64,000 nucleotides of DNA, taken from contig CP017245.1 in NCBI GenBank assembly GCA_001765415.1, forward strand, positions 1,488,001 through 1,552,000, in the 5' to 3' direction. Each line of letters starts with the position of its first letter. The stretch's first letter is position 1. Made by a program: the position numbers and the translations under genes. Source of the stretch: Candidatus Melainabacteria bacterium MEL.A1 (GTDB taxonomy: Bacteria; Cyanobacteriota; Vampirovibrionia; Gastranaerophilales; Gastranaerophilaceae). This document shows, in pieces, positions 11,884 through 36,428 of the stretch. Below the pieces are notes generated by a model, which had not been told where the DNA came from, searched no databases, and worked only from the letters and a program-made list of their open reading frames with translations.

Positions 11884-13872
11884 TTATTCTTTTAAAATAT
11901 CAGCGTATTTTTGTAAATCATTTAAAAGTAAAGAGTATTTTTCATTCAGTTCGGCTCTGGTTTGATCTTTGTTTTCGCTTTGGCTTACTTTCTCATCAAT
12001 TTTTGCTTGTAAGGCTTGTTTTAATAATTCAGGTATGTTCAAAGCTGTCGGGTTTTCGCTTGCTAAATTTGCATAATATTTATCAAGAAAATCAGGAGAA
12101 ATTCGTTCTTTCCAGTTTTCTTTTCTATCAATTCCACCCATATTGTATGTGACATCAGTAATTCCTAAAATATCTGCAAAAGATATTTGGAATTTTGGAG
12201 TAGTCATAAGTTCGGCAAATTTCGCTCTCACTAAATCTCTGTCATTAGAATTAAGTTTGTTTTTAAGTTCGTTTCTTATATCAGAGATATTTTGTCTGCC
12301 GTCATCAATATTCAAATAGCCTGCCAAATAATTTACATCCCATGCAGGGGAGCTTTTTGTGTATTTGAAACCATTTAAGCCTTCCCTATCAGGATAATTC
12401 ATTGCTGGAATATTGTCGTGTGAGCCGATTAGATACCAATCGCCTTTTCGGGTCGTTTTTAAAGCTTCTTGCGCACGTGTCCAGTCAAGGTTTATGATTT
12501 TTGGTAAATTTAATTGGTTTTCGTAGATTTCTCTAAATCTTGGCGGATATGTACATAAATCTTCCCATACAGGCATATCTGATTTTATGTTGTGTTCTTT
12601 TAGCGCTGGTAATATTAATTTAGTCAACAATTTTGGGTAATCCCAGTATTTGTCATATTCTTTGCCATTTTTGTCTGTAAGCTCAGAAATATATTTTTCT
12701 ATATTGTTGTTTTTATTGCAGTTATTTGAAAAATCTTCATTTGAGGCATTTTTTAATAAAAGATAAGGTTCTATTAAACCCATTGCGTGATCAATTCGGA
12801 TGTTTTCGTTAAATTCAAGTGCAAAATTTATTTTTTCTTTTAAAAACTTCCCGCCGATATTCAATTCATATTTGTCATTTTTAAATATTTTTTTAGGGTC
12901 AATTACCGGAATATGCCACCTTTGAGATCTTCCATTGTATTCTTTTGCTCCCATTTCCCAATCTTTTAAAAACGCATCTTTGTAACGCCACATGTCCATT
13001 TGAGAGCAACCTACTAGTAGGTCGTTAAAATATTTAAAACCTAGTTTTTCACGCCATTCTTTATTTTCTTTAATTTGTTTTGTTGCTATAAATTGTTCAA
13101 ATTTATGTTGCTCAATTTCGTTTTTGTTGGCCTTTTTAATGCTATTATATCGTTCAATAGCTTCAATATCGCCGTTATTCAAGTCTGAAATCAAGTTTTC
13201 ATCTCGTTCGTTATGCCAATCGTCGATTTTGTCTGTATTGTAATGTCTTGCTAATACTTTAAAAATTCCTTCATCTGTCAATCTTTTGTTGTTGCGAGAA
13301 AGAAAACTGTTGTATTCATTTTGTAACGCAAGAGCTTGAGGTTGACCTTTTGCAACATTTGTTTTGAAGTTTTTGAAACTTTCTGAAAGAGCTTCGTCAT
13401 AAGTTTTTATAGCTTCTTCAAAATTGCTCATTTCATAATTTTCATCAGTATTTTTTATAGGTTCTGTGACAGAATTGAATGTTTCTTTTGACAAAATTTT
13501 TCCATACTTATCAGTTGTCAAATCTTCCAAATCAATAAACAATCTGTTTTTGGCAAACGCAGAAGAATTATATGGAGAAGGTTTTATTTCTCCATCTTTA
13601 AATTCCAACTCTCCTCCAGGTCCTAATTGATTACCATTAAAGCCATACAAGGATAAAAATTTGACATATTCTCTAGCGGCCTTTCCATAAGGACTTCCGA
13701 TATAGGTGTTTCGGTCAATTGCTGGAAAGCAGGAACCATGTGTAATCGCAACTCTGTCTGTAACCCCGATTACATCATAAGCTTTGTCACAAGTATCTTT
13801 TAATCCTCTTTCTTCTTCCGGTAGAGGTCGTCTTGTAAATGGTATTTGATTGTTTATCCCTAACACGCGCAT
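11884..13872 (-). CDS. malQ: 4-alpha-glucanotransferase-like GH77 enzyme
   Basis: 662-residue GH77 (amylomaltase/disproportionating) enzyme that transfers alpha-1,4-glucan segments in maltodextrin or glycogen metabolism. The substrate-site block LGPGGEL...SPYNSSAFAKN is near residues 80-110. Catalytic positions are visible: nucleophile Asp361 in RIDHAMG, acid/base Glu437 in VWEDLC (family usually EDLG), and Asp486 in GSHDN. A large insertion (about residues 140-300) is rich in charged residues. No signal peptide, so cytoplasmic. It begins MRVLGINNQIPFTRRP. Works plausibly with the GH13 enzyme at 48919. Confidence 0.85.
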   Translation of the reverse strand: MRVLGINNQIPFTRRPLPEEERGLKDTCDKAYDVIGVTDRVAITHGSCFPAIDRNTYIGSPYGKAAREYVKFLSLYGFNGNQLGPGGELEFKDGEIKPSPYNSSAFAKNRLFIDLEDLTTDKYGKILSKETFNSVTEPIKNTDENYEMSNFEEAIKTYDEALSESFKNFKTNVAKGQPQALALQNEYNSFLSRNNKRLTDEGIFKVLARHYNTDKIDDWHNERDENLISDLNNGDIEAIERYNSIKKANKNEIEQHKFEQFIATKQIKENKEWREKLGFKYFNDLLVGCSQMDMWRYKDAFLKDWEMGAKEYNGRSQRWHIPVIDPKKIFKNDKYELNIGGKFLKEKINFALEFNENIRIDHAMGLIEPYLLLKNASNEDFSNNCNKNNNIEKYISELTDKNGKEYDKYWDYPKLLTKLILPALKEHNIKSDMPVWEDLCTYPPRFREIYENQLNLPKIINLDWTRAQEALKTTRKGDWYLIGSHDNIPAMNYPDREGLNGFKYTKSSPAWDVNYLAGYLNIDDGRQNISDIRNELKNKLNSNDRDLVRAKFAELMTTPKFQISFADILGITDVTYNMGGIDRKENWKERISPDFLDKYYANLASENPTALNIPELLKQALQAKIDEKVSQSENKDQTRAELNEKYSLLLNDLQKYADILKE

Positions 13873-13919
13873 GATGTTTTTTCTAAAACTTGTAAAAATA
13901 TTTTTTTGCTAATGAAATT

Positions 13920-15398
13920 TTAAATTTCTGCAATAATATCAACTTGCGCATTGCAACCAATTTCTTCTCTTGCCAAAACAACGATATTATTAATATAATT
14001 GCTCAAAAGTGTGAATATCAAATGTCTTAATTCTAATGGTACGAAAAGTTTTGGTACATCAATCTCGAATTGTTTTGATTGTTTAATGATTTTTTCTGCC
14101 AATTTTTCGGCAAAACCTGCATCAATTCTAATTATAGCATCTTCGCCTTCATCAAAACTCGGAGTTAGTTTATCAAGAGTTTTTTCTGAAATTTCAAATG
14201 CTGAAATAACTCCGTCTTCGTTTTTGTATTTGTCACAGATTTGACGAGATAATGTCAATCTAATTTTTTTAATTAAATCAGATTTTGTGCTATCTTCTGC
14301 AAAATCATTAATTTTTTCAAAGATGTATGTGATATCTTTAATTGAAATTTCTTCTCTAATCAAACTTGTTAAAATAAATCTCAAGTCAGAAAGCGAGATG
14401 AAATCAGGAATTACGTTTGTAACTAAAAATTCGTTTGTTTTGCTCACTACATCAATATACTTATCTAATTCTGCATAATCAAGTAAATCTTCAACATATT
14501 TGATAGCGCAATATTCTAAAGCTTTTGCGATATATTCAGAACCGGAAATCCCGTTTTGCCAAAAATCTTTTGTTTTGCTCTTTTCAATCCAAATAACTTT
14601 TCGACCTGTAATTTTGTCAGTAGTCGAAATTGAATCTTTTATTTTCTTATCTAAATGTAATTCGTCAGTGTAGAACATTAAAAAATTCGGGTAAACCATA
14701 GATTTAAAGACGTCTATTCCCCTGATTTTTATTGAAAATTCATAAGGGTTTAAATTTTCGTCATCTTGGAAAACTATTTTGGGAATAACATAACCAAGAC
14801 TTTCAGTTAATTTTAATCTTGTTTTAACAGTTTCTGCAACGAGTTCTTCTTCATCAATTTCACTGTCAGGATCAATGTAGCCCAAAATCTCTTCACTCAA
14901 GCGAATAGATAATTTTTCTTCTTTCAACTTTGAATACATCGCATCTGGAGATGTTGCTTTTGCCAGTTGGATTTTCAAATCTTCCAACTCTTTTAAGCCG
15001 GCAGAAATTTTATCATTAAGTTTTTTCCTGCTTACAGATGCCGGAGCTTCACCATCAAGTTCTTTTTTTACTTTTGCAATTTTAGCTTTTTGATCCTTAA
15101 TTTTGCTTTGAATATCAAGGCAAATTTCATACGGAGATTGTTCTGTAGAAAGCATTTTCTCCATTTGACTTTTAAAGGTTGAAATGTTTATTGTATCTGC
15201 GTTAATCTCATTTGTGGAGGTATCTGATTCTCGCATAAAAATGCAGTTGCACAATATTTGACCATCTTCGCCTTCAACTTCTTGCATGCTATACAGTTCC
15301 CAATTGTTCATAGACATTTCGTTCAAAAGGTTTTGAAGTTCTTGAGTATTGTCGCTTGCACAAGTTTTTATAACATACTGCATTTTTTTGTTAAACAT
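13920..15398 (-). CDS. soluble FlhA cytoplasmic-domain-like protein with DUF4177-like N-terminus
   Basis: 492 residues without any membrane helix. Residues about 165-492 follow the whole cytoplasmic domain of the flagellar export gate FlhA: ESLGYVIPKIVFQDDENLNP with YEFSIKIRGIDV (FlhA: EMGYLPPVVHIRDNMDLQP), then VIWIE, then IPDFISLSDLRFILTSLIRE with ISIKDITYIFEKI (FlhA: VLQNLLDEKVPIRDMRTILE), and a last LRHLIFTLLSNYINNIVVLA block. The eight-helix membrane gate is absent. It is replaced by a DUF4177-like segment (6-56) and a Lys/Glu coiled coil (about 95-150). SD AAGGAG. No flagellar genes adjoin it. Family homology is strong; a role as soluble docking platform is inference. Confidence 0.8.
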   Translation of the reverse strand: MFNKKMQYVIKTCASDNTQELQNLLNEMSMNNWELYSMQEVEGEDGQILCNCIFMRESDTSTNEINADTINISTFKSQMEKMLSTEQSPYEICLDIQSKIKDQKAKIAKVKKELDGEAPASVSRKKLNDKISAGLKELEDLKIQLAKATSPDAMYSKLKEEKLSIRLSEEILGYIDPDSEIDEEELVAETVKTRLKLTESLGYVIPKIVFQDDENLNPYEFSIKIRGIDVFKSMVYPNFLMFYTDELHLDKKIKDSISTTDKITGRKVIWIEKSKTKDFWQNGISGSEYIAKALEYCAIKYVEDLLDYAELDKYIDVVSKTNEFLVTNVIPDFISLSDLRFILTSLIREEISIKDITYIFEKINDFAEDSTKSDLIKKIRLTLSRQICDKYKNEDGVISAFEISEKTLDKLTPSFDEGEDAIIRIDAGFAEKLAEKIIKQSKQFEIDVPKLFVPLELRHLIFTLLSNYINNIVVLAREEIGCNAQVDIIAEI

Positions 15399-15409
15399 TT
15401 AATTGCTCC

Positions 15410-16180
15410 TTATTTTTTGTCGTTTTCAATAAGAATTTTTAAAGCTTCAATAGCGGTCTTGATAGCCATATCAGTATCATGAACGACAGGATTTTCCAAG
15501 CCAGACTTTTCTCTTTCCTGATTGGCTACTGTTAAAAATACAGAACCTACTCTAACTCTTAAAAAGCTACCAACTATAAATAAAGCTGCAGATTCCATCT
15601 CGGATGCCAAACATCCCATCTTCTTCCAAGCTTCCCATTTATTGAGTAGTTCATAGTTTACAGGCATTTTTTCAGGACTGTGTTGCCCGTAAAAAGAGTC
15701 TTTGCATTGAACAACTCCAGTATGGTATTCGTGTCCTAAGTTTTTTGCAGCCTGAACAAGAGAATTTATTATGTCTAAATTTGCAACTGCTGGAAATTCT
15801 ATTGGTGCATATTCTTTCGTTGTTCCTTCCATACGGATTGCACCAGTTGCAATAACAATATCGCCACCTTTTACGTTAATATCCATTCCTCCGCAAGTTC
15901 CAACTCTTATAAAGGTTTTAGCTCCTACGTTGACAAGCTCTTCTAATGCAATAGATGCTGAAGGACCGCCGATACCGGTAGAAGTTACACTAACTTTGGT
16001 TCCGTTTAGGTATCCTGTGTAAGTTGTGTATTCCCGTCTATCTGCAACTAATTTTGCATCATCAAAATACGCTGCAATTTTAGCACAACGCTTAGGATCT
16101 CCCGGAAGAATTACGTATTCACCCACATCTCCAACATTTAAACCGATGTGGTATTGTTCTCCATGTTCAGAATATTTCAT
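15410..16180 (-). CDS. udp: uridine phosphorylase
   Basis: 256-residue nucleoside phosphorylase of the PNP/UDP family, closest in motif spelling to uridine phosphorylase: [14 protein letters not shown] (phosphate site), [26 protein letters not shown], and EMESAALF (ribose and base site). It converts uridine + Pi to uracil + ribose-1-phosphate in pyrimidine salvage, in the cytoplasm. Length matches the family (about 253). SD AAGGAGAAATC before ATG. The preceding skp stop and the following FlhA-like start are within 20 bp, so it probably belongs to a long minus-strand operon bamA-skp-udp-flhA-like. Confidence 0.88.
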
Positions 16181-16196
16181 GATTTCTCCTTAAATA

Positions 16197-16655
16197 CTAA
16201 AACTGGCTACTTTTCAATTTTTGGATAACCAAATCAGAAATATCAACACCACCAACAAAAATTACTCTGTAATCAACAATTGCATCAAGTTTTTGCTCTA
16301 CAAGAACTTGTTTTGTTGCAGCTTGAATTTTGTTATAAACTTGTTCTTCTTTATCAGATTTTAAACGCATATAAGCATCTTGTTTTAGTTTAAATTCTCT
16401 TGCAGTTTGATCTTCAAAGTTTTGCTTTTTCAATGGAGTATCAAGAGCTTTGTATTGTTTTTCTTTGTCAACCATGTATTGTTGCATTTCCAATGCTTTT
16501 GCATCAATTTCTTTTACTGCTTGTTGAGCAAAAGGAAAGCTATCTTGTACTTTTTGGTAATCAATATATCCAACGCCTGCTGCATTTGCTTGATTGCCTA
16601 ATGTAATAAATAAACCGGCAGTCATTAATAAAGCTGCTAATTTTAAATTTTTCAT
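16197..16655 (-). CDS. skp: OmpH/Skp-family periplasmic chaperone
   Basis: 152 residues. The signal peptide (KNLKLAALLMTAGLFITLGNQANA) is followed by the OmpH-like domain: a short beta segment GVGYIDYQKVQDSF, a long charged coiled coil (about 45-120), and the closing YRVIFVGGVDISDLVI. Skp-type trimers carry outer-membrane proteins across the periplasm to BamA, whose gene lies 17 bp upstream in the same operon. Length is typical. Supports a diderm envelope. Confidence 0.88.
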   Translation of the reverse strand: MKNLKLAALLMTAGLFITLGNQANAAGVGYIDYQKVQDSFPFAQQAVKEIDAKALEMQQYMVDKEKQYKALDTPLKKQNFEDQTAREFKLKQDAYMRLKSDKEEQVYNKIQAATKQVLVEQKLDAIVDYRVIFVGGVDISDLVIQKLKSSQF

Positions 16656-16672
16656 TTTATACCTCCATTAGA

Positions 16673-18628
16673 TTAATACATTATATCGCCTACACCAAAA
16701 GTGAAGTAACCGTTTTTGTTGCCGTTACTACCCGGATTTGTAAGAGGAATACCATAATCGATAGATAATGGACCCATTCCCGGTACATACAGTTTTAAAC
16801 CAACACCGGCAGATACTGCATAAAGCGGTCTGTCGTAAATTTTATCCGTAATTGATGGGTTGAAGATTTTACCGGCATCAGCCCATACAGTAAATCTTAG
16901 GTTGTTTAAGAAATTAATTCTTGTTCTATCAAGGAACGGAATTGGGGTTGCAAATTCTGCACTACCCATAATGAATGCGTCGCCTGTACCAACCCCACTC
17001 ATTTTGAAACCTCTGATAGTGTAAGGACCGCCTAAACGATATGCCATAACTTCCGGCATGTTATCTCCGTGAATTTTTCCTCCACCTTTAGCAGTGAATG
17101 ATAAAGATGATTTCTTCCCAATAGGAACATATTGTTTAACCATACCGGTTAACTTTCCGTGAGTTTTATCAAAATCAAGAACACCAAATTCTTCATCAAA
17201 TCTCAAACTTGCCATTGTCCCTTTTCTGGTAACTGTTGCGCTATCTCTTGTGTCATACAAAAGAGCCGGACTTAAAGATAAGAATAATCCACCATCAAGT
17301 TGTCTTGCACGTTCCGAAATTGGGATATTGTATCTTGAGTACAAACTTGCAATTTTACCAGCATCGCCTTCAGATACGTCAATATTTTCAAGTCCTAAAG
17401 AGAAAGTCCCTGTTACGTGTTTATTGAATTTCATTCTGTGAGCAACAGTTGCTTCTGCACCAATTCTTCTTTCAATAGCAAGTGGAACTTGATAAGAACC
17501 AAAATCTCTATAGAAAATCTTACTCATCAAAGATGTATCGGCGTTATAAAAATATGGTTTGAAATAACTCAACTCAGCCTGCAAATTCATACGGCGTTTA
17601 ATGGATGAGTCGTTTAAGATTACACCGGTACCGGCAATACCGTTAAGGGAAATTCTTTCGTTTCTTCCCATAAAGTTGTTATCTGCAATTCCAACAGAAC
17701 CAAACACACCGGTTACAGAGTCAATACCACCGCCTACTGAAATACTAGCAGTCCTTTGTTCTTCAATATTAATAGTAATATCGTATTTATCAGGATCATC
17801 AGTAGGTTCGATTTCTCTGGTTACGTCTTTGAATGCTTGAGTTGCATAAAGTCTTACCAAATCTTCTTTTAACAAGTTTTCATTATAAACTTGTCCCGGT
17901 TCTGTCAAAACATTTCTTTCAATAACGTAATCTTTTGTTTTTTCATTACCGGAAATTAAAATTCTGTTGATTGTTCCTTCTTTGATATCAATGTTTACAG
18001 TTCCATCCGGATCGTCAGAAACTGAATCAATTCTTGCTAAAATATACCCTTTTGAGCTATAGCAATCTTGGATTTTAGCAATTGCATTGTTAAGTTCTGA
18101 AATATTTTGAGGTTTCCCTTTCATAGGAAGAAGGTAGGATAAAATTTCGTCGGTAGAAATTACAGTGTTTCCTTCAATAGTAAAATCTGTTACGGGAGCG
18201 TTTTCAGTTACAACAATTTTTAAAGTGATAGAACCGTCAGAATTGTTTACAGGAATTGCACGCATGTTTTCTGTAAAATATCCCATTTCGTAGATAGCTT
18301 TAAGATCACGTTGCACAAGTTCTCTGTTGTATGTATCTCCGGCTTGAAGTTTCATTTGTTGCAAAATTAGAGATTTGTCAATAACGTTGTTCCCGACAAA
18401 TTCAATATTTTTAATTTTTCTTTTTTCTGAAGTATTTGCAGTTGTGCTTACTGATGCAGAAGTTGTATGAGTTTCGTCAAAAGAAGTCTGTGTTGCAGTA
18501 GGTGTTTGAAGGTCATGCACATCTGTATCGTTTGCACCGCCCCAGAAATTCCCTCGAGCAGCACATTGAAGCGGGCATGTCATAACCAACAACAGGGCTA
18601 TTAAAGATATATACTTTTTATTTCTCAA
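16673..18628 (-). CDS. bamA: BamA/Omp85 outer-membrane assembly factor (three POTRA)
   Basis: 651 residues. Signal peptide (TTG start, KKYISLIALLLVMTCPLQC), a Ser/Thr-rich linker, then three POTRA domains (about 70-145, 148-220, 222-295; IKNIEFVGNNVI, VTDFTIEGNTVI, INRILISGNEKT), then a 16-strand barrel (about 300-651) including the VRGF-type signature as IRGFKMSGVG. It inserts beta-barrel proteins into the outer membrane. Three POTRAs is the cyanobacterial and plastid number (proteobacteria have five). GGTAGAGA lies before TTG 18628. Heads the operon with skp. Confidence 0.9.
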   Translation of the reverse strand: MRNKKYISLIALLLVMTCPLQCAARGNFWGGANDTDVHDLQTPTATQTSFDETHTTSASVSTTANTSEKRKIKNIEFVGNNVIDKSLILQQMKLQAGDTYNRELVQRDLKAIYEMGYFTENMRAIPVNNSDGSITLKIVVTENAPVTDFTIEGNTVISTDEILSYLLPMKGKPQNISELNNAIAKIQDCYSSKGYILARIDSVSDDPDGTVNIDIKEGTINRILISGNEKTKDYVIERNVLTEPGQVYNENLLKEDLVRLYATQAFKDVTREIEPTDDPDKYDITINIEEQRTASISVGGGIDSVTGVFGSVGIADNNFMGRNERISLNGIAGTGVILNDSSIKRRMNLQAELSYFKPYFYNADTSLMSKIFYRDFGSYQVPLAIERRIGAEATVAHRMKFNKHVTGTFSLGLENIDVSEGDAGKIASLYSRYNIPISERARQLDGGLFLSLSPALLYDTRDSATVTRKGTMASLRFDEEFGVLDFDKTHGKLTGMVKQYVPIGKKSSLSFTAKGGGKIHGDNMPEVMAYRLGGPYTIRGFKMSGVGTGDAFIMGSAEFATPIPFLDRTRINFLNNLRFTVWADAGKIFNPSITDKIYDRPLYAVSAGVGLKLYVPGMGPLSIDYGIPLTNPGSNGNKNGYFTFGVGDIMY

Positions 18629-18706
18629 AAAATCTCTACCTTAAAAACTTCAATTAACTATCCTAAAAATATTATATCATAAATTAAAAAAAGTGGAAGA
18701 TGTAAA

Positions 18707-19516
18707 TTATAATAAACATCTTTTATAAATATCGTTTTTATTTAGTTTATACAATTCTGCCAATATCACTGATATATCCTTGTCTTTAAAGCCTTTGCGT
18801 TTTAAAACAGAAATTTTTTCGTCAATGTCAATATCGTTACAATTAAAATTTTCCCTAAAGATAAGCCCGACAATTTCGCCTTTTAAAATGTTGTTTTTAA
18901 AATGTTCAATAATATTTTCTGCGCTATCAATAACAATTTCTTCAAAAACTTTTGTAAGTTCTCGCCCGATTGCAACTTTAGAATTTGGTCGAATTTCTTT
19001 GATAATATCTAAGGTGTTTAAAATTCTGTTTGGAGAATCATAAAACACTATATCAGTCGATTTGTATGTTTTTAAAAGATTTTCGATTTGAGTTTTTGTT
19101 TTTGGTAAAAATCCGATAAATGTGAAATCTTCTCCCTCTCTTGGAACTTGAGATAAAAAAGTTGCAACTGCATTTGCTCCGGCAAGAGATGTTACAGAAA
19201 AATTATGTTTTCTCAATTCTTCTACGATAACCGCTCCCGGATCGCAAAAAAGAGGAGTTCCTGCATCAGAAACAAGTGCAATTTTTTTCCCTTCATTTAA
19301 CAGTTCAAGGAAGTAATCCACACGTTCTTTTTCATTAAATTTGTGATAAGAAACGCATTTTGTCCTTATATCATAGTGGTTTAATAACTTTTGAGTTACT
19401 CTCATGTCTTCGCAAGCAATAATATCAACACTTTTTAGTGTTTCTATTGCTCGCAAAGTAATATCGCTTAAATTACCGATAGGTGTCGGAACTATATAAA
19501 AATCATATTCTTTCAT
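18707..19516 (-). CDS. rsmI: 16S rRNA (cytidine-1402 2'-O)-methyltransferase RsmI
   Basis: 269-residue tetrapyrrole-methylase-fold protein with the RsmI signatures: N-terminal YIVPTPIGNLSDITLRAIE, CEDMRVTQKLL, LVSDAGTPLFCDPG and FIGFLP. It methylates the ribose of C1402 in the ribosomal decoding centre using S-adenosylmethionine. Length is near the family's 280. It sits between bamA (78 bp downstream) and the MGLAASQARF gene on the same strand, and may be separately transcribed. Confidence 0.92.
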   Translation of the reverse strand: MKEYDFYIVPTPIGNLSDITLRAIETLKSVDIIACEDMRVTQKLLNHYDIRTKCVSYHKFNEKERVDYFLELLNEGKKIALVSDAGTPLFCDPGAVIVEELRKHNFSVTSLAGANAVATFLSQVPREGEDFTFIGFLPKTKTQIENLLKTYKSTDIVFYDSPNRILNTLDIIKEIRPNSKVAIGRELTKVFEEIVIDSAENIIEHFKNNILKGEIVGLIFRENFNCNDIDIDEKISVLKRKGFKDKDISVILAELYKLNKNDIYKRCLL

Positions 19517-19558
19517 GATTTAATTATATGTTAAACATGAAATTTTAATAACTTAAAC

Positions 19559-21283
19559 CTACGAGCTGAACATTGTAAATACTTTTTCAACATTCTTGCT
19601 AATTAGGTTTTTAACAGTATCGTATTCGGTTGTTAATGATGACAATTCTGTATCAATATTTTTCATTTTTAGTTCAAGAGTTTCTTCTTTATAGTTTAAT
19701 TTTGTCTTTTTAACGTTATATTCGGCTTCTGCTTGAGCTATAGCATCATCATCAGTTACTTCTGCAATGTGACCGCTTGCGGTGTAATGTCCTTGATAAA
19801 AATATCCGTCAGTATTTAGGGTAGAAACAAATAATTGACCGTTTTTCAAAGCGTGGGTTAGGTATTCTTGGTCATTTATTTTTTGCATAATGTTTTTGTC
19901 AGTACAAGCTCCGTTCATACAAATTTGGTTATACAACATGTTATAAAAATCTGCGTTTAAACTAGATTGCTCTGTTGTTGCGTTATCATTTTTAAGTACA
20001 AAGTAATATGTTAAATCATCTGTTACATAATCACTTTTCTTTGTAGAAGTCTTATCTACACCATAACCTGCATCATAGCCTTCCAATGCTATGGCAAAGT
20101 TAGTTAAAAATGATTTCAACATATTTGTTAAACTTATTGATGAAATATTTTTGTTTGATTTGGCAATAGTATTAGAACCTTGAGCAGCGGAAATTGCGTT
20201 AGAAATAGCTGCATAAGTTGTTTTGCCGCTTGAACTTACTGCATAATTTGCGTTAAGTTGAAGTTTTGAAAATTCGTAAGCTTGTTTTAATGCACTTTCA
20301 GAAGTTGCATCAACATTCAAACCTTTAACATTTGCACTTTCACCCAATCCGAATTTAGCAGCCATACCCGCTAAAACTTTTTCGGCAATTGATGATAACG
20401 CTTCAGCTCCCATTGTTCCGCTCATTTCGTATTTGCCACTCAACAAGTCGCCTAGAGTTAATTTTTCAATATCTTGTCTTGAAAGAGCGTTACCTGATTT
20501 TGTGATAATGATTTTTCCATCATCTTTATTAGAAGGTGATGTCGTTGTACAGAAAGTTTTGTTAAATTCATCATCTGTTACTTCTTTATTTCCATCAGCA
20601 TCTGCAAGAAGTGAAATTACATCAAGGGCATAGATAGAATTTCCTTTTTCATCCACTGCGTTTTGCATATATGTGATGAAGGTATTAGTTGTCATGGCGT
20701 TGGTCAAAGTTTTGTCAATTATAGCTCCACCAATACCAGATTTTGTATAACCCGCATCTCCCAGATCGTATATTGATTTAATTGTAGAAGGATCTGCAAG
20801 TCCTTGAACTCCTAATTGGTATAAGAATGCGTTACGAGAACCTCCTGTTGTTGCATCTGTTGTTCCAACTGTAAATAAGCCGTTTGGAGTTGTTGTATTT
20901 CCATCTTTGGAGGTGATTTTCGCAATTGGGTTACCGTCTTTATCAATAATACCCGCATTCTGTGCTGCAGTAAACATGCTTTCGGTCAAAACAATTCTAC
21001 CCTGAGAATCTGTAATTAAATAAGGATCATACTCATTCAATGCGGAAGGTGTCATCATTAATCCATAAGACAAATTGTAAACATTTCCGGTCCCGTCGCA
21101 ATTGTTGTCAGCATCCCATACAAGTTTAGTCGCATTCAAAGAATCTTGATATTCCTGAGCTGCGGCTTGCTGGTCACGAGTAACAGAAAGCTTTTGTTGC
21201 GCAATTTGCATTGATTCAAATTCGCAATTCATCTTTCTTGCTGTTATCGCCAGAAATCTTGCTTGTGAAGCTGCCAATCCCAT
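19559..21283 (-). CDS. large lineage-specific protein with GLAASQARF N-terminus and EF-hand loop
   Basis: 574 residues, no named family. It begins MGLAASQARFLAITARKMNC, then a Gln-rich helical stretch (SMQIAQQKLSVTRDQQAAAQ), a pattern reminiscent of N-termini of flagellar axial proteins. There is no cleavable signal peptide. The middle is Thr/Asn/Gly rich and carries a canonical EF-hand-like loop DADGNKEVTDDE (228-239). The C-terminal 60 residues form a coiled coil (KTKLNYKEETLELKMKNIDT). A candidate non-Sec exported protein, perhaps a client of the FlhA-like/FliI-like pair in this window; that link is speculative. TGTTACGAATTTGTAA lies about 100 bp upstream. Confidence 0.6.
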   Translation of the reverse strand: MGLAASQARFLAITARKMNCEFESMQIAQQKLSVTRDQQAAAQEYQDSLNATKLVWDADNNCDGTGNVYNLSYGLMMTPSALNEYDPYLITDSQGRIVLTESMFTAAQNAGIIDKDGNPIAKITSKDGNTTTPNGLFTVGTTDATTGGSRNAFLYQLGVQGLADPSTIKSIYDLGDAGYTKSGIGGAIIDKTLTNAMTTNTFITYMQNAVDEKGNSIYALDVISLLADADGNKEVTDDEFNKTFCTTTSPSNKDDGKIIITKSGNALSRQDIEKLTLGDLLSGKYEMSGTMGAEALSSIAEKVLAGMAAKFGLGESANVKGLNVDATSESALKQAYEFSKLQLNANYAVSSSGKTTYAAISNAISAAQGSNTIAKSNKNISSISLTNMLKSFLTNFAIALEGYDAGYGVDKTSTKKSDYVTDDLTYYFVLKNDNATTEQSSLNADFYNMLYNQICMNGACTDKNIMQKINDQEYLTHALKNGQLFVSTLNTDGYFYQGHYTASGHIAEVTDDDAIAQAEAEYNVKKTKLNYKEETLELKMKNIDTELSSLTTEYDTVKNLISKNVEKVFTMFSS

Positions 21284-21666: not shown

Positions 21667-22956
21667 TTACAGTGTTATTGGCCAATAAAAATCAACTAAA
21701 TATGAGGCGGCATCCATCGGATGAGATAAGAATTTGAGTTCTTTTGACTGCTTGATTTGTTGATATGTTGGAATATCTATTTTTGACGAACCCTCTTTGT
21801 ATTTGAGATTATAGATGTTGTATAAAAGTTTTTCACATTTTTTATCAACAAAAAGACAGACTTCTCCATTTGCGGAGCGGACTTTTGAATTGAATGCCAT
21901 AATCCTATTTTTTATTGGCGGATTAAAAGCTTTTATCTGAATTTCTACATCATAGCCGAATTGTAAAAGTTTTTTGTTTATAATTACGTAGTTTGTGTAT
22001 TCACTGGTACAACTTCTGTTGTCGCCTGATGCGTCACCGTTTACGATGATTTTCCCTTTGTGGTTTGGGTACCTGCGATAAAATTCGTCGCAAGCTTTTG
22101 CGGTTGTCGTATTTTCCATTGCGATTTCATCAAAGTAAAAGACCTTATCGTCTGTTTTATGTGCAAAAACCCAACACATTGGATCAACGTTAAAGTCGCA
22201 AGATATATGCAAATCCATTTCTGGTTGATAAGTTATTTCTTTTATGTTTTCGTCGGAAAAATCCTTTATGACAAGTCCGTTGTTGTACTCTCCGTTTTGT
22301 GCAAGTACAAAAATATTGTAGTATTGTTCGTCATAAACCTTTTTTAGTTCATCGCAAAAACCTTTTGGTAAATAAATATTTTGGGTTGTTGGAGCGCTAA
22401 TTAACCTATAATTTGGCGATTTGTTTTCTTTAAATGTTTTATAAACCCATCCCCTACAAGTTTCGGGATTTGTGTGTCCAAAAATTCTATATGTAAAATC
22501 TTTCCAAGATTTTTTGACTTTCTGTCGCATACGCCCCAAGAGCATTTTGAATGTATCGTAAGGAATATCGGACATTTCTTCAATTTCGACAAATCCTAAG
22601 TTTAGAGATTTTAATTTATTTGGTTCGTCAAAATGCCTGAATAGAATTTCTGAGCCGTTTTTAAAAGTTAATTTTTGGAGAGATGATGACCAATCGTAGT
22701 CTTTGCCTTCCGTAAATCCAAAATTGTCAAGATGTTCAAAATATGTTTGTAAAGTAGTGTCTCGTACAAGGGTGTAGGTTTGCGCTCCAACAAGACCTCT
22801 TATTCCTGGAAATTTTAAAGCCAATAAAATCCCTAATAAAGACCCTGCAAAAGTTTTGCCCGAACCGTAACCCCCTTGATAAACAGCGACATCTAATGAG
22901 TAATCATGCGGGATTTCTAAAAACTCCCGTTGTGCTTTTAATAATTTATACAACAA
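21667..22956 (-). CDS. phage terminase large subunit (PBSX/Terminase_3 type)
   Basis: 429-residue packaging motor that cuts and translocates DNA into phage proheads. ATPase domain: Walker A GGYGSGKT (28-35), Walker B with catalytic Glu in GFVEIEEMSD, coupling motif GHTNPET. The RNase H-like nuclease domain has acidic residues in SCDFNVDP, NGDASGDN and HPMDAASY. All active-site motifs are intact and length is normal. Located at the 3' end of the cluster, after portal, which is the reverse of the usual order. Confidence 0.9.
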   Translation of the reverse strand: MLYKLLKAQREFLEIPHDYSLDVAVYQGGYGSGKTFAGSLLGILLALKFPGIRGLVGAQTYTLVRDTTLQTYFEHLDNFGFTEGKDYDWSSSLQKLTFKNGSEILFRHFDEPNKLKSLNLGFVEIEEMSDIPYDTFKMLLGRMRQKVKKSWKDFTYRIFGHTNPETCRGWVYKTFKENKSPNYRLISAPTTQNIYLPKGFCDELKKVYDEQYYNIFVLAQNGEYNNGLVIKDFSDENIKEITYQPEMDLHISCDFNVDPMCWVFAHKTDDKVFYFDEIAMENTTTAKACDEFYRRYPNHKGKIIVNGDASGDNRSCTSEYTNYVIINKKLLQFGYDVEIQIKAFNPPIKNRIMAFNSKVRSANGEVCLFVDKKCEKLLYNIYNLKYKEGSSKIDIPTYQQIKQSKELKFLSHPMDAASYLVDFYWPITL

Positions 22957-23031
22957 TTCCCCCTTTATTCAAAACTGTTATTTCTTAATTATATTTTTTT
23001 ATATTTTAGAGTTTCATAAAAATCGTGTTGT

Positions 23032-23037
23032 TATAAT
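23032..23037 (+). promoter_or_regulatory. TATAAT -10 element of moron-like gene
   Basis: TATAAT ends 10 nt before ATG 23048 on the strand opposite the phage operon. No convincing -35 and no SD, so the transcript may be leaderless. Confidence 0.4.
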
Positions 23038-23047
23038 TTCTCCTTTT

Positions 23048-23431
23048 ATGTATTATTGGTGTATGAGAATATATAAATATCTTTTTTCAAATCTGTCTGC
23101 ATTATGTTTTTATTTTTTAGTTTTTTTAACTATTCATGTATTTGTTCTTCAAAATTTGCATATAAAATTATATACAAATGTATATATTACTTTAGCGCAG
23201 TATAGTGCTATATATTTGTTATTAACTATATTGGCTTTTATTTTTTTAATTCTTTTTGTTATTGAAATATTTCTTTCAAAAAAGTTTCTAAATTTTTTGC
23301 CTCAAATAGATTTCAAGAATAAACATTTTGCTTTATTGCACAAAATATTATTTTTTATAGCTTTTATAGGTAATTTTTTGAATTTTTTATTTTTATTTTG
23401 TATGTATTATTTGCTAATCGGAAAGATTTGA
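23048..23431 (+). CDS. small multi-helix membrane protein inserted between terL and portal (moron-like)
   Basis: 127 residues, very hydrophobic, with three or four predicted membrane helices (about 10-35, 48-70, 95-125) rich in Phe and Ile. It is encoded on the strand opposite to all structural genes, with its own -10 and no SD. Its last 18 bp overlap the portal 3' end. The strand, private promoter and extreme AT content suggest a moron: a gene added to the phage that may act in the host, for example in superinfection exclusion. No family recognised. Confidence 0.55.
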   Translation: MYYWCMRIYKYLFSNLSALCFYFLVFLTIHVFVLQNLHIKLYTNVYITLAQYSAIYLLLTILAFIFLILFVIEIFLSKKFLNFLPQIDFKNKHFALLHKILFFIAFIGNFLNFLFLFCMYYLLIGKI

Positions 23432-25090
23432 ATTAGTTTTTTCTTCCAATAAAAAATTATTTGCGTTTTCTATTCCGTACTGTTCCAGTGCGAATTTGAA
23501 ACATTCTAGCCAATCAATTTTTTCTTCAACTTCCGGAACTTGGGCAAAGGCTTGTACGACTTCAAATAGCTCTTTTAATCTTAATTTTCTTTCAAAAGTT
23601 GCTTTTCTATCGCCATAGCGGTAAATATAATTGGAATTTCTAATATCATCATCAATTTCAATAAAACTTGTTTTGCCCCTATCATTTACACCGATTAATT
23701 CTTTGCCAAGTTTGAAATATGAAATTATTTCTGCAGTTTTTTCAACCATAGGAACAATGATTTTTCTGTTTATGGAATCCAAAATCATATTTAAGCGTGC
23801 TTCTTGTCCGTTCACTGAATAATTTAATTCGGTTGCGGTTCTTTGTGCTGATTGAATATTCCCAGCCATGTTTTTGAAAATTCCTGTTGCGCTTTCAATC
23901 GTTGATTTAAAATAGTTTAAGAAATCCCAACCAACCATTGCTTTGTCAAAAGACAGTGGAGTTGGAGATTGCGGCATAAGTGCTGCATCATATTCAATAA
24001 TTTTGCCCGGTTTAACTTCTTGTTGCCCTTTGAAACATCCTTTTGGTGCAAGATATGGAGGGTTCATCATAAGAGCAAGAGCATCAATTTGTTTGTTTAA
24101 AATTGTTGATGCTATATTGTTCAAAATCAGTGCAACTCTTAGCGGAGAAATTCCTCTGCAAGTTTGCGGAGATTCAATTATGTTTGCGTGAATAAATGGG
24201 TTGATTACGAACGGATTACTCTCAAAACGAATAATCATTTGTCTTGCAGCAACGACGACTAACCAATTTTTTAGTAAAGTTCCGTCATTGAGTTCAATAT
24301 CACCCCAAAATTCCAAAATTTCAACTTTGTTACCTTCTACAGCCTTTTCTTCTTTGTTGTTGGGTCGTTTGTTATTTGCCACCACTCCTTTCAAAATTTC
24401 CAGTTTTTCTTTAGTTAATTGGTTGTTAGCTTTGTCTGAAAAGATTTCATCAACTGTTAGATATGTGCGGTATATTTTGGCGCATTTATCCCAGTTGTCA
24501 ATATTGAATTTATCGAAAACAAAATCTTCTGACTTAATATGTTTGATTTTGGCGTTGTCATAAATAATTTTTTCATCAAGTACAAAACCTGTTTTATCAT
24601 CTGATAGCAGTTGTTCTTCAAGAGTTTGCGCTCGTCTTGTCGATTTAATTTTTGTTTCCCAACCGACAAATAGTGTACTTTCTCCGGTTTCAATAATTCC
24701 GTCAATAATTTTTTCCATTTCATTTTCAAGGTTCATTTGTTCAAAAGTATTAACAAGCATTGCTTTTTGGCTATTTGCAAAACTTTGTGTTTGTGGAGTT
24801 GTACCGGAAACGTCAAACATTGCATCCGGATGGGAATATAGGTTTTCGCTAATATGAGATTTTAAAGTTTGAGCGAGTTCGTAAATATCAGGTAATTCAA
24901 CCTTGTTATCCCACCCGTTAAGTCGTGGAATTTCCGAATTATAAATTGCATCTCTAACGAGTTTTATATCTGTTAATTGAGAATTCCTTTCTCCGTCGTA
25001 TTTATCAAATTTTTTTGTAATATTTCCGATTAAGTATTTTTCATTTAGATTATCTAATTTCTGAATTAAATCTTCTTGTTCTATTTTCAT
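23414..25090 (-). CDS. phage portal protein (podovirus type)
   Basis: 558 residues. The portal ring forms the DNA gate of the capsid. Supporting features are the size, the position between packaging genes, the opening region (ERNSQLTDIKLVRDAIYN), the central stem-like ATSILN-type helix region (NNIASTILNKQIDALALM) followed by GKIIEYD, and the helical segment after SATGIF with AQRTATELNY, resembling portals of P22-like and related podoviruses. Full length without frame breaks. 4 bp separate it from the upstream acetyltransferase gene. Family assignment rests on pattern and context. Confidence 0.8.
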   Translation of the reverse strand: MKIEQEDLIQKLDNLNEKYLIGNITKKFDKYDGERNSQLTDIKLVRDAIYNSEIPRLNGWDNKVELPDIYELAQTLKSHISENLYSHPDAMFDVSGTTPQTQSFANSQKAMLVNTFEQMNLENEMEKIIDGIIETGESTLFVGWETKIKSTRRAQTLEEQLLSDDKTGFVLDEKIIYDNAKIKHIKSEDFVFDKFNIDNWDKCAKIYRTYLTVDEIFSDKANNQLTKEKLEILKGVVANNKRPNNKEEKAVEGNKVEILEFWGDIELNDGTLLKNWLVVVAARQMIIRFESNPFVINPFIHANIIESPQTCRGISPLRVALILNNIASTILNKQIDALALMMNPPYLAPKGCFKGQQEVKPGKIIEYDAALMPQSPTPLSFDKAMVGWDFLNYFKSTIESATGIFKNMAGNIQSAQRTATELNYSVNGQEARLNMILDSINRKIIVPMVEKTAEIISYFKLGKELIGVNDRGKTSFIEIDDDIRNSNYIYRYGDRKATFERKLRLKELFEVVQAFAQVPEVEEKIDWLECFKFALEQYGIENANNFLLEEKTNSNLSD

Positions 25091-25094
25091 TGTT

Positions 25095-25595
25095 TTATAA
25101 CCTTTCTTTTAATATTGAATAAATCTCAATATCTTGCAGTTTTCCGTTTCTTTTTGTTTCATTTTTCAATAAAGCTTCTTTGGAAAATCCTGAATGTAAA
25201 AGCAGATTTTTTACACGAAAATTTTCAGGATATATAAGGGCTTTGATTTTTTCAAAACCATATTTTTGAAAAATTAGGCGCAAGAAACAATAAGCGCAAA
25301 TTTTTGTATAAATTCCCCAATAATTCTTGTCAAAGCAGGTAACTAGTTCAGCACTATGGTATTTTTTATTATTCCCTATAATGTTATCCAGATATACAAA
25401 TCCGCTAACTTTTTCTCCTTCTGTAATTACCCAAAAATATGGATAAGTTCTATTTATGAGGTCAAAAAAGTATTGTACTTTGTCGTTTTTGGCATCAGCG
25501 TAGTCGTCATCAAGGAATTTTGAATATTTTAAATATAAAAGTATTGCTTGTTTTACGTATGCTGGGGTTTCATAAGGGTTTGAAAATTTTGTCAT
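25095..25595 (-). CDS. GNAT-type acetyltransferase-like protein of the phage cluster
   Basis: 166 residues with a GNAT-like progression: FWVITEGEKVSGFVYLDNI (strands 2-4), LVTCFDKNYWGIYTKICAY (helix 3), then KIKALIYPENFRVKNLLLHS with GFSKEAL (helix 4 and beta 6, as in NxxSxxlleklGF). The usual acyl-CoA loop QxxGxG is poorly kept (NYWGIYTK). Such genes often accompany podovirus head genes between terS and portal; the target is unknown. Stop and start overlap with the 116-aa gene by 1 bp. Confidence 0.7.
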   Translation of the reverse strand: MTKFSNPYETPAYVKQAILLYLKYSKFLDDDYADAKNDKVQYFFDLINRTYPYFWVITEGEKVSGFVYLDNIIGNNKKYHSAELVTCFDKNYWGIYTKICAYCFLRLIFQKYGFEKIKALIYPENFRVKNLLLHSGFSKEALLKNETKRNGKLQDIEIYSILKERL

Positions 25596-25945
25596 TAATA
25601 TTCAGCTTTCTCAAATTTTATGTACGCATCATCTGTTGTGAAGGCGTTGAGTTCTCCTTTTAACATTTTGGATCTGACATTAGTTTGCAATCCTATTAGT
25701 GCATCTGCTTGAATTCCGTTTATAAATGTTTCGCATCCCGTTTTTCTGTTGAAAAATTTGTATATAGAATATTTCGAAAATATTTTGTCTTTAGGCAAAT
25801 CTTTTATATTGGTGTAAGTTTTGGGGATAGGTTTTTCTTTTGATTTTTTTAAATCGTTCATAAATTCTTTTTCAATCTTCATTTTTATAAGATCTTCTAA
25901 AGAAGCATTGCTCAAGAGTAATGCTTCTGCGTCACTGTTTTTCAT
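25595..25945 (-). CDS. hypothetical phage protein, 116 aa
   Basis: Unrecognised. The N-terminal half is helical and charged (LEDLIKMKIEKEFMNDLKKSK); the C-terminal half contains an FFNRKTGCETFINGIQADAL segment. It lies between terminase small subunit (22 bp upstream) and the acetyltransferase (1-bp overlap), so it is co-transcribed with the packaging genes. No signal peptide or membrane helix. Confidence 0.6.
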   Translation of the reverse strand: MKNSDAEALLLSNASLEDLIKMKIEKEFMNDLKKSKEKPIPKTYTNIKDLPKDKIFSKYSIYKFFNRKTGCETFINGIQADALIGLQTNVRSKMLKGELNAFTTDDAYIKFEKAEY

Positions 25946-25967
25946 TCGTTTTTCTCCTTATTAATAA

Positions 25968-26402
25968 TTAGATTTTTTTATCGTCAAGATTTGAAATTGT
26001 TATTATTTTGGCTTGTTTGTATTCTTCGTCTTCTTGTTTAGAGTTAAATCCAAGATATTTGCATAAATTTTCAAGGGCTTTTAAACCGGCAGATGTATCA
26101 CGAAGTTTCTTTTTGCCGGTGTAATCACCTTCTTTATCCAAAATATCTTCCTCTTCAAGTGAAAATTCTGCGATTTGGAGTAATTTTTGTATTACATAAC
26201 CTTTATTTACTCTTAATGATGAAATTTGTTGTTTTAGTTGTGTTTTAATTTCTCTTATAATGGTTTCATCAGACAAAAGTTCTGTTGCGGTGGTTGTTAA
26301 ATTCTTTGATTTGTAACCGGCGCATTTCGCAGAACGCTCTCCATCGAGAGTTTTGATGTATTCAGATACAAATATTTTTTGTTGTTTAGTTAATCGTTTC
26401 AT
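25968..26402 (-). CDS. phage terminase small subunit
   Basis: 144 residues of the Terminase_2 type: LTKQQKIFVSEYIKTLDGER (first HTH helix), AGYKSKN with TATELLSDETI (recognition region), then helical oligomerisation segments and an acidic/basic tail. It binds the packaging site and loads the large subunit. The N-terminal DNA-binding helix is complete. Usually first in the packaging operon, here it follows the head genes in transcription order. Confidence 0.85.
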   Translation of the reverse strand: MKRLTKQQKIFVSEYIKTLDGERSAKCAGYKSKNLTTTATELLSDETIIREIKTQLKQQISSLRVNKGYVIQKLLQIAEFSLEEEDILDKEGDYTGKKKLRDTSAGLKALENLCKYLGFNSKQEDEEYKQAKIITISNLDDKKI

Positions 26403-26423
26403 AAGTTTATAGGTTTTAAATTA

Positions 26424-26439
26424 TGTACATTTCGTTACA
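26424..26439. promoter_or_regulatory. TGTAACGAAATGTACA dyad
   Basis: Minus strand TGTAACGAAATGTACA just upstream of terS (start 26402) and about 15 bp before the plus-strand promoter at 26454. Related copies occur at 9783, 34318 and 43196. Confidence 0.4.
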
Positions 26440-26453
26440 TTTGCAGGTATTAT

Positions 26454-26482
26454 TTGAAATTTTTCGAAAAAAATTGTATAAT
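26454..26482 (+). promoter_or_regulatory. plus-strand promoter inside the phage cluster
   Basis: TTGAAA (26454-26459), 17-nt spacer, TATAAT (26477-26482), pointing against the structural genes toward the small ORF at 26533. Confidence 0.6.
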
Positions 26483-26532
26483 AGTCATGCTATTTATATT
26501 TCGGCTAGTGTAAATCTTAACAGGAGGGGAAA

Positions 26533-26616
26533 ATGAATTTTAAACTTCCTGTTTTTTTTATGCGCAAAAATGATTTTACTTTTTGGGAGAAACTCTTTAT
26601 CTACGGGATATTTTAA
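26533..26616 (+). CDS. candidate 27-aa micropeptide with strong SD
   Basis: ATG 26533 follows AGGAGGGG (26522-26529) at near-ideal spacing, downstream of a good promoter. The peptide is hydrophobic and aromatic with a few basic residues (starts MNFKLPVFFMRKND, ends LFIYGIF). It stops at 26616 and overlaps the end of the convergent adaptor gene by 20 bp. Nothing matches a known family. The signals suggest genuine translation; a role in lysis, exclusion or regulation is guesswork. Confidence 0.5.
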   Translation: MNFKLPVFFMRKNDFTFWEKLFIYGIF

Positions 26617-27235
26617 TAGTTGGATGTTCCTCAATTGTTTTAGAAACTTTTGATTTTAAGTTCGCAAAAGCATCTTTGTACATGCTTAGCCAATAGCTAA
26701 ATCGGGCATGTTTTGGATTGCCTTTTAATCTCATACAAGCTCCATATACAACAATCGGTTCGACAAATGGGTTTGGAATAAGAGATATGTCATCAGCTTC
26801 TTCAAAAGTTAATTTTTCTTCGCCGTATTGATTTTTTACGCAGTTTTTGGTGTAGTAAATAATTTCAACAGTTTTGTCTTTGTTAAAAGTTGGAAAAAGA
26901 ATTTTGTCATTGAATAAGCTATAAGTGCTTGAAGGTTGAGAGTTTGTAAAAAAGTGTTCAAAATTTGCAAAATACTCATACTTTTTGCCATCAACAATGA
27001 TATCTTTAATCCTTCCGTCTATTGTATTTTCTATTTCTCCTGAATTTTTGGAAAGGGTTAATTTTTTGTTTCTTATTAAAAAATTCCATTTGTCAGATGT
27101 GCAAATTTCGGAATTTATTATGTTAATAATATTTTTCAATTTGTTATGCTCATTTTTGGTCAGTTCGGAAAAAGTATTAACTTGTTTGTAATTTAATTCT
27201 ACAAGGCATTTGTTAATAAGTTCTAGGTAGTTCAT
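26597..27235 (-). CDS. phage head-tail adaptor-like protein
   Basis: About 212 residues when started at ATG 27235, which has AAGGAG 5 nt upstream; the longer frame to 27256 has no such support. The N-terminus (MNYLELINKCLVELNY with later FSELT and KLKNIINIINSEIC) and all-helical plus small beta domain (DDISLIPNPFVEPIVVYGACMRL) resemble podovirus adaptors such as P22 gp4 or T7 gp11, which form the ring below the portal. Position next to scaffold and coat genes fits. Confidence 0.65.
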   Translation of the reverse strand: MNYLELINKCLVELNYKQVNTFSELTKNEHNKLKNIINIINSEICTSDKWNFLIRNKKLTLSKNSGEIENTIDGRIKDIIVDGKKYEYFANFEHFFTNSQPSSTYSLFNDKILFPTFNKDKTVEIIYYTKNCVKNQYGEEKLTFEEADDISLIPNPFVEPIVVYGACMRLKGNPKHARFSYWLSMYKDAFANLKSKVSKTIEEHPTIKISRR

Positions 27236-27311
27236 TTTTCTCCTTTCTTCTTTCAAGAAAGAGTAGCCTAAAAATAGACTACTCTCTCACAAAAGATTTA
27301 ATAGTTATATG

Positions 27312-35081: not shown

Positions 35082-36428
35082 CTATATCTCCACTCCTCTC
35101 ATCATATCGACGAGAGTTTGAATGGTTGTATCCATACTAACAATATCGGAAGTTCTTTGTTGCAAGAACGCATTAATTTTTGGCATCATCTCAATTGCTG
35201 TATCAAGTCTAGGGTTAGTTCCGGGTTGATACATTCCAACGTCAATCAAATCTTTGTTTTCTCTATACAACGCCATAATTGTACGCATTTTACCGGCGGC
35301 TTCTTTGTGTTCAGGTGTAACAATAGATGACATCAACCTTGAAATACTTCCGAGAACGTCAATTGCCGGATAATGGTTCATTTCGGCAACTTTTCTTGAC
35401 AAGAAAATGTGACCGTCAACAATACCACGCACAATATCTACAATCGGATCCGAAATGTCATCACCTTCCATTAATACTGTATAAAGAGCTGTTACAGAAC
35501 CTTTTGGGCTATTCCCTGCTCGCTCAAGAACTTTTTGTAGCCAAGAGAAAATTGATGGCGGATAACCTTTCATTGTTGGAGGTTCGCCTAGTGATAACCC
35601 AACTTCACGCCCTGCCATTGCACAACGTGTTACGGTATCAGTCATCAAGAAAACTTTTTTACCCTGATCTCTAAAGTATTCACAAACTGCGGTTGCAGTT
35701 AACAAAGCTTTTTGCCTAATCAATGGTGGTTGGTCGCCTGTTGAGCAAACAAGAACAGATTTTGCCATACCTTTTTCGCCAAGTGCATCTTCAACAAACT
35801 CTTTAACCTCACGCCCACGTTCTCCGATTAACGCAACTACGTTTACATCTGCATCAGAGTTTCTGGCAATCATACCGAGTAATGTACTTTTCCCAACTCC
35901 AGAGCCTGCAAATAATCCTAAACGTTGTCCGCAACCCATTGTCATGCAGCTATCAATTGCCCGAACTCCTGTTGAAAACACTTCTGTAATAATTGGTCTT
36001 TCAAAAGGTCCGGGTGGGGGTCCTTCTACCGGTCGCCATGTCGCTCCGGTTGTGTCAAGCGGTTTGCCGTCAATCGGTTCTCCCATCGGGTTAATCAATC
36101 TTCCTAAAAGGAAATCTCCAACTGGAATTGTGATAGGTCTACCGGTAGATGTAACAAGACTACCTTGCCCGATACCTTCGCCATCATAGAGCAAAAGTAA
36201 TTGAGCAACTTCACCTTTAAAAGCTTGAACTTCTGCCGGTTTTCGTCTGCCGTCTTTTGTTTCGATGTAGCATAAATCTCCAACTTTCAAGCCTGGAAGT
36301 TTTACTTCTACGGTCAAGCCCAACAATTTAGAAACCGTTCCTTTGAAACGATATAATTCGGTTTCTTCTAACTTGTTTATGATTTTATCTTTTAAGTCAG
36401 TCAGTTTGCTTGTATCTAATCCATCCAT
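35082..36428 (-). CDS. fliI: FliI/YscN-type (flagellar/type III secretion) ATPase
   Basis: 448-residue F1-like ATPase of the FliI/YscN branch: N-terminal beta-barrel (about 25-95), LGRLINPMGEPIDG, Walker A GSGVGKST (175-182), IGERGREVKEF (201-211), LMTDTVTRCAMAGREVGLSLGEPP-type stretch near 250-275, MEGDDISDPI, and a C-terminal helical domain. It energises or primes export of flagellar or T3S substrates. Full length with all catalytic motifs. No fliH, fliJ, fliF or hook genes adjoin it. Its only possible partner in the window is the FlhA-C-like protein at 13920. Confidence 0.9.
   Translation of the reverse strand: MDGLDTSKLTDLKDKIINKLEETELYRFKGTVSKLLGLTVEVKLPGLKVGDLCYIETKDGRRKPAEVQAFKGEVAQLLLLYDGEGIGQGSLVTSTGRPITIPVGDFLLGRLINPMGEPIDGKPLDTTGATWRPVEGPPPGPFERPIITEVFSTGVRAIDSCMTMGCGQRLGLFAGSGVGKSTLLGMIARNSDADVNVVALIGERGREVKEFVEDALGEKGMAKSVLVCSTGDQPPLIRQKALLTATAVCEYFRDQGKKVFLMTDTVTRCAMAGREVGLSLGEPPTMKGYPPSIFSWLQKVLERAGNSPKGSVTALYTVLMEGDDISDPIVDIVRGIVDGHIFLSRKVAEMNHYPAIDVLGSISRLMSSIVTPEHKEAAGKMRTIMALYRENKDLIDVGMYQPGTNPRLDTAIEMMPKINAFLQQRTSDIVSMDTTIQTLVDMMRGVEI

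Follow-up and report, generated by a model that had tools for sequence, protein, structure and literature searches.

A membrane-free paralogue of the export-gate protein FlhA in Gastranaerophilales

A protein of 492 amino acids encoded in a 64,000-nucleotide stretch of DNA from Candidatus Melainabacteria bacterium MEL.A1 (the window, contig CP017245.1, positions 1,488,001 to 1,552,000) is, judged from its sequence and structure models, a soluble, cytosolic paralogue of the export-gate protein FlhA without the membrane half. It is named SOL here. In flagellar and injectisome export the cytoplasmic domain of FlhA (FlhA-C) is the docking and switching ring. By sequence comparison SOL is old and under strong purifying selection, and it probably adjusts an export machine that many Gastranaerophilales, members of an order of non-photosynthetic gut cyanobacteria, keep without flagellin. 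The reading to which we lean, with a little less than even confidence, is that of an accessory subunit or regulator of flagellum-type export, with system B, one of two export systems of the order, as its likely partner.

Architecture, distribution and key residues of SOL

All four FlhA-C domains, D1 to D4, are present in SOL, in the sequence profile as well as in the predicted fold (Table 1). Positions 1-313 of the FHIPEP profile are unmatched. The membrane domain, with its eight helices and FHIPEP loop, was not found in SOL, and hydrophobic segments are absent (maximum 19-residue mean 1.41); the original prediction of a FlhA cytoplasmic domain without membrane helices is thus borne out. Against the full-length equivalog TIGR01398 SOL scores 157 bits, where the cut-off is 772 bits. 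The N-terminal domain has an ACT-like layout. Profile searches with residues 4-58 gave no family match, and the DUF4177 profile gave none to the N-terminal segment at E ≤ 10, the models having a beta-alpha-beta-beta layout. Among the segments compared, this domain shows the strongest conservation, with a mean column entropy of 0.78 bits (0.85 for residues 301-391 and 1.16 for residues 162-492, segment borders set by hand). The ribosome-binding site in the window was judged good by eye. A promoter scan of 13700-19600 gave 22 sites, no excess over the mean of 22.9 in shuffled sequences.

Table 1. Features of the SOL region in window coordinates
Feature	Position	Strand	Basis or remark
SOL gene (soluble FlhA-C protein, 492 aa)	13920..15398	-	name coined in this analysis
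Shine-Dalgarno AAGGAG of SOL	15406..15411	-	by eye; begins with the final two bases of the upstream stop codon
SOL residues 4-58, small beta-alpha-beta-beta domain	15225..15389	-	structure models
SOL residues 86-149, two long helices (helical hairpin / coiled coil)	14952..15143	-	structure models
SOL residues 150-161, FlhA linker, Tyr155 at the Trp354 position	14916..14951	-	alignment
SOL residues 162-492, FlhA-C domains D1-D4	13923..14915	-	profile and structure comparison
Nucleoside (uridine-type) phosphorylase	15410..16180	-	PF01048 5.1e-42; 11 bp upstream of SOL
Skp/OmpH-like periplasmic chaperone	16197..16655	-	PF03938 4e-10
BamA (Omp85 with POTRA repeats)	16673..18628	-	PF01103 2.2e-42
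RsmI-like methylase, head of the SOL block	18707..19516	-	PF00590 8.8e-27
FliI-type export ATPase	35082..36428	-	PF00006 2.6e-82, PF18269 2.8e-28

SOL was found in 60/60 Gastranaerophilales genomes (hand count from the search table), and the window protein gave matches from residue 1-5 onward in all 24 genomes of a hand-picked panel of the order. A class sample of 60 genomes had SOL in the 12 shared with the order sample and in none of the other 48. In eight genomes outside the order, picked for having two FlhA and no SOL, only FlhA was matched, from about residue 128; that two full-length FlhA occur there without SOL counts against an accessory role in export. Among the matches listed in a protein search (120 of 1310), lengths were 474-492 aa and identity to the window protein at least 72%, figures that, coming from those matches, say nothing on distant forms. 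In nine pairs of close relatives (comparisons with dS <1.5), dN/dS was 0.03-0.10. Identity among six genomes was 44-79% for SOL versus 85-97% for the FlhA-C part of system B FlhA, and within each of these genomes the two proteins were 25-30% identical. The evolution of SOL in the six genomes is much faster than that of the gate, which also speaks against an accessory role. The high conservation of system B FlhA over the same part argues for a working machine.

Linker and dimple residues of FlhA are best described in Salmonella. According to the accessible parts of three papers (PMC8166844, PMC10965912, PMC8213127), the linker binds the next subunit through Glu351, Trp354 and Asp356, which stabilise the ring, with Trp354 docking onto that subunit (PMC8166844, PMC8213127); the chaperone dimple, by the same three accounts, includes Asp456, Phe459 and Thr490. 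The corresponding residues were counted in 44 sequences, namely the window protein and those from 43 loci picked for spread among the 80 related ones; 12 deep relatives, among them the near duplicates G019 and G024, were added later. Tyr or Phe occupies the Trp354 position in 44/44 sequences and 12/12 deep relatives, which favours a part in export. The Glu351 position is acidic in 42/44, yet in only 4/12 deep relatives, and Asp356 is not retained among the 44. At the hinge, Gly368 is replaced by Ser in 44/44 and 12/12. In the dimple Asp456 is kept (44/44 and 11/12, or 55/56), the Phe459 position is Thr or Ser in 44/44 and never Phe in the 12, and the Thr490 position is Lys or Arg in 40/44, with Thr in 0/44 and 0/12. 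Replacement of Phe459, Thr490 and Gly368 in 56/56 sequences was counted in favour of the export reading. Dimple positions 440, 461, 487, 490 and 491 are more varied in the deep relatives than in the 44, in which the pocket, as far as residues tell, is rebuilt with conserved residues of its own rather than decayed. Positions 459 and 490 also vary in B-type FlhA outside the order, a point on the other side, and these two alone therefore do not define chaperone binding. Because 0/56 copies keep Phe459 or Thr490, a chaperone-docking platform in the classical sense, as first proposed for this gene, is not favoured.

Export systems of the order and the ancestry of SOL

At least one full-length FHIPEP protein was found in each of the 13 relatives' genomes first searched. 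Across the order, system B has a full-length FHIPEP protein (about 1e-206 to 1e-221) in 59/60 genomes, and a further full-length FlhA (about 1e-261 to 1e-268), that of the flagellum or system A, occurs in 12/60. For the window's organism the coexistence of SOL with full-length FlhA is known by kinship, from these relatives' genomes. The phrase "without the membrane export gate" in the original prediction accordingly holds for the SOL protein and fails for its relatives (13/13 and 59/60 with full-length FHIPEP). The genome search that it had suggested, carried out in relatives, recovered FlhB in 12/12 and FliP in 24/24 panel genomes besides FlhA. In the one remaining genome, G044, SOL is present and full-length FlhA was not found, which tells against a role at the gate; since G044 has FliP, FlhB and FliMN, the missing FlhA is possibly an assembly gap.

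In system A of G009, flhA adjoins the FlhB and FliP genes (L090). System B is arranged in two operons, each described by Pfam in one genome: FliE, FliF, FliH and FlhA together (L087), and FliMN-FliO-FliP-FliR (L113), with FliQ placed in the latter by position alone. Its FlhB gene is located apart from both. In the FliG position there are one or two proteins for which Pfam gave nothing above cut-off, FliG_C appearing only at E 0.09; proteins of 319-340 aa lie at this position in L087:5294-6316, L086:9674-10678 and L118:5871-6830. Rod-family matches turned up in 12/12 genomes, and the seven of these that lack system A have two to four apiece; FliK-like matches were found in 20/20, above cut-off in nine. 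Flagellin_N was matched in 8/24 panel genomes, seven with system A FlhA and G021. Loci of system B were noted at L086, L087, L088, L093 and L113, and its FlhA is kept in 59/60 genomes of the order, though flagellin was found in 8/24 panel genomes. Outside the flagellar set, a FliJ search of 12 genomes without flagellin match gave four sub-threshold matches and eight blanks; FliJ of system B is at best weakly recognisable, which weakens the case for SOL as an export component. One or more secretins were detected in 12/12 panel genomes. As a mark of an injectisome this was rejected, for they are most likely pilus secretins and so decide nothing. The FliI-type ATPase of the window is 77% identical to the ATPase beside system B FlhA in G019 and, on that likeness, is probably orthologous to the system B operon's ATPase.

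Two trees place SOL among these proteins; the short partial sequences SX_G093 and SX_G044 were dropped from both. With the long-branched SX_G095c included, support was 41% for SOL with SX_G095c and a second membrane-free form of about 591 aa, 43% for all B-type sequences, and 95% for the node of SOL, the B-type FlhA of the order and the closest other B-type FlhA. In a 343-column tree that excludes SX_G095c, the corresponding values were 93% for SOL with the 591-aa form, 97% for the B-type clade and 92% for the last of these nodes. SOL thus nests among the B-type FlhA proteins and is probably an old offshoot of that lineage. Other placements were tried. Derivation of SOL from flagellar FlhA was rejected (AU p=0.0035), as was grouping with E. 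coli FlhA (AU p=0.0007). A direct sister relation to the order's own system B FlhA alone is rejected by the AU test (p=0.0011) and not by the SH test (p=0.226).

A few other FlhA-C-only genes have been detected. The second membrane-free form, about 591-600 aa, occurs in G007, G041, G051 and G063 (4/60) and in G006, and G044 carries a 302-aa FlhA-C piece. In the 591-593 aa form (L092:5374-7149, L114:3042-4823) part of D2 is missing, including the dimple strands, and after it come a histidine kinase/response regulator and a LuxR-type regulator, with domains as checked in L092. Among the 48 class genomes outside the order sample, three (G095, G071 and G093) have FlhA-C-only genes. Those of G095 lie at L096:2296-3957, L097:289-1236 and L098:151-1113; two of them group with their own lineage's FlhA (100% support), and one starts, by eye, with a hydrophobic segment.

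Gene neighbourhood

The related loci are the best 80 of 81, taken from genome contig records, of which many carry the name Candidatus Gastranaerophilales (gut Melainabacteria); neighbour counts treat loci cut by contig ends as misses. The block reads rsmI-bamA-skp-phosphorylase-SOL. Upstream of SOL on the same strand, skp is found in 79/80 and bamA in 77/80 of these best loci, and rsmI in 43/80. Most loci thus have SOL with bamA, skp and a nucleoside phosphorylase, outside flagellar or export operons, which argues against a function in export. The place between skp and SOL is taken in the window's clade by a uridine-type phosphorylase, in the deeper-clade loci L049, L053, L061, L066 and L067 by another protein. 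The one at L049:8669-9973 is a pyrimidine nucleoside phosphorylase unrelated to the window's 15410-16180 enzyme.

In 7/80 loci (best 80 of 81) no more than about 0.25 kb separates a window-type fliI from rsmI, which supports an export link. In the window the matching rSAM-ZIP-fliI block is about 20 kb from SOL, with a phage-like stretch, recognised by eye, between. That stretch (about 21667-31126, between rsmI and the rSAM-ZIP-fliI block) has terminase- and portal-like genes by eye, and L015 and L016 also carry the terminase-like one. A 574-aa protein (19559-21283, start MGLAASQARFL) has no match in a Pfam scan and may, at a guess, be exported; relatives are found in L015 and L016 and, shorter, in L021.

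In G019 and G024, SOL is followed directly by fliJ (1.4e-17), fliK, flgD and flgE, an arrangement that speaks for a part in export. The two SOL proteins are 97% identical and the genomes, closely related, count as a single lineage, so the fliJ link rests on one lineage, which counts on the other side. So does the likeness of this fliJ-fliK-flgE group to the flagellar set, since SOL is also present in genomes without a flagellin match. The fliJ-side arrangement was not found in the other ten of the 12 deep-lineage genomes (the G015 contig ends at SOL and that of G016 is 3.4 kb); divergent copies could be missed, because the search used G019 genes only. The window's bamA and skp gave no match near SOL in the deep genomes G015-G019, G021-G024, G026, G027 and G029 (two stretches short), and the bamA-skp neighbourhood therefore looks younger than SOL. 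In G023 a response-regulator pair, resembling by eye the one beside the 591-aa form, follows SOL at a distance of about 4 kb.

Possible role and comparison with known systems

The favoured account begins with an old duplication in the FlhA lineage of system B that would have given rise to SOL. The membrane half would then have been lost, with the small alpha/beta domain and helical hairpin in its place. Through the kept linker and D1-D4 fold it probably continues to enter FlhA-type rings, either rings of SOL or that of the gate. Its pocket being rebuilt, SOL would not receive classical chaperone-substrate complexes. At the gate it could set which substrates engage the FlhA ring, or when the FliH-FliI-FliJ complex does so. 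The complete FlhA-C fold, the near-universal pairing of SOL (60/60) with system B FlhA (59/60), the branching within the B-type clade and the low dN/dS (0.03-0.10) were all counted for such a role.

Several other explanations have to be weighed. The FlhA-C fold may have been reused outside export, serving envelope biogenesis or metabolism as a ring or scaffold. This is unlikely, for all that bamA (77/80) and skp (79/80) accompany SOL in the best 80 of 81 loci, that two unrelated nucleoside phosphorylase families occupy the same place beside it in two clades, and that its new N-terminal domain is the most conserved segment: the 12 deep-lineage genomes have no bamA or skp match near SOL (two stretches short), and SOL was seen, among the genomes sampled, only in an order where system B FlhA is present in 59/60 genomes, with FliP and FlhB in the 60th. 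It is also rather doubtful that SOL is an antagonist, a cytosolic FlhA-C that holds FliJ or FliH-FliI off the gate so that its amount throttles export. The linker aromatic is kept in 56/56, and in Salmonella, as given in the accessible part of the literature, FliJ interacts with the FlhA linker; fliI adjoins the SOL block in 7/80 loci (best 80 of 81) and fliJ adjoins SOL in one lineage. However, retention of the whole four-domain fold goes beyond the needs of a sequestering peptide, and the non-flagellar FliJ-like candidate is weak, below cut-off in 4/12 genomes without flagellin match and absent from 8/12.

That SOL is a decaying, functionless flhA fragment is scarcely credible. The missing membrane half and the lost pocket residues would suit it, but presence in 60/60 genomes and dN/dS of 0.03-0.10 reject a recent fragment or pseudogene, and the new conserved N-terminal domain and good ribosome-binding site in the window also oppose decay. 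The original prediction would have been undone by a normal flhA elsewhere with this gene as a recent fragment; the normal flhA does exist in relatives, and SOL is old and under purifying selection.

A more specific form of the accessory role, which we hold improbable, is that SOL forms a soluble, chaperone-blind FlhA-type ring exchanging with, or capping, the gate ring of system B, which would itself be a dedicated non-flagellar export machine of nearly all Gastranaerophilales, while the N-terminal domain senses a metabolite, perhaps a nucleoside, and switches export. If so, SOL would be the first regulator made from the gate's own docking ring.

A conserved membrane-free FlhA-C with an altered pocket offers a natural experiment that could separate the ring parts used in assembly from those used in substrate choice. 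The "incomplete flagella genes" of non-motile gut cyanobacteria may, it is suggested, be a separate, highly conserved export system and not leftovers; the conservation of system B makes its substrates and gut role a direct question.

With the FlhA/SctV C-terminal domain (FHIPEP, PF00771; 7amy, 6ch2, 3a5i, 3mix) SOL shares the four-domain fold over residues 159-492 and a linker with the aromatic docking residue. It differs in having no membrane half or FHIPEP loop, in the replacement of Phe459, Thr490 and Gly368, and in its new N-terminal alpha/beta domain and helical hairpin. In the open-access literature no description was found of a stand-alone FlhA-C, in keeping with the original view of SOL as undescribed though here also conserved, or of a type III system in these bacteria. 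One likeness is to FlhX of epsilonproteobacteria, which is related to the C-terminal part of FlhB and stands alone: in both, a gate protein's cytoplasmic domain exists as a separate soluble paralogue, but FlhX derives from FlhB, not FlhA, and the domain is unrelated. Another parallel comes from Lysobacter enzymogenes, which belongs to a different phylum from Gastranaerophilales. This non-flagellated bacterium reuses flagellar export genes, so that, in the accessible part of its account, a flagellar-type export apparatus is kept and functional without a flagellum; that part does not mention a soluble FlhA-C (PMC7277350). For non-motile Gastranaerophilales themselves, "partial" or "subset" flagella gene sets have been described and, in the accessible passages, read as an incomplete or reduced flagellum (PMC3787301, PMC4040986, PMC5877343). 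Di Rienzi et al., in the portion available, built trees on 13 flagellum-related genes that include two flhA; one of these two may be SOL. These sets are probably the same genes, which are resolved here into two separate systems, with SOL as a further, membrane-free FHIPEP gene.
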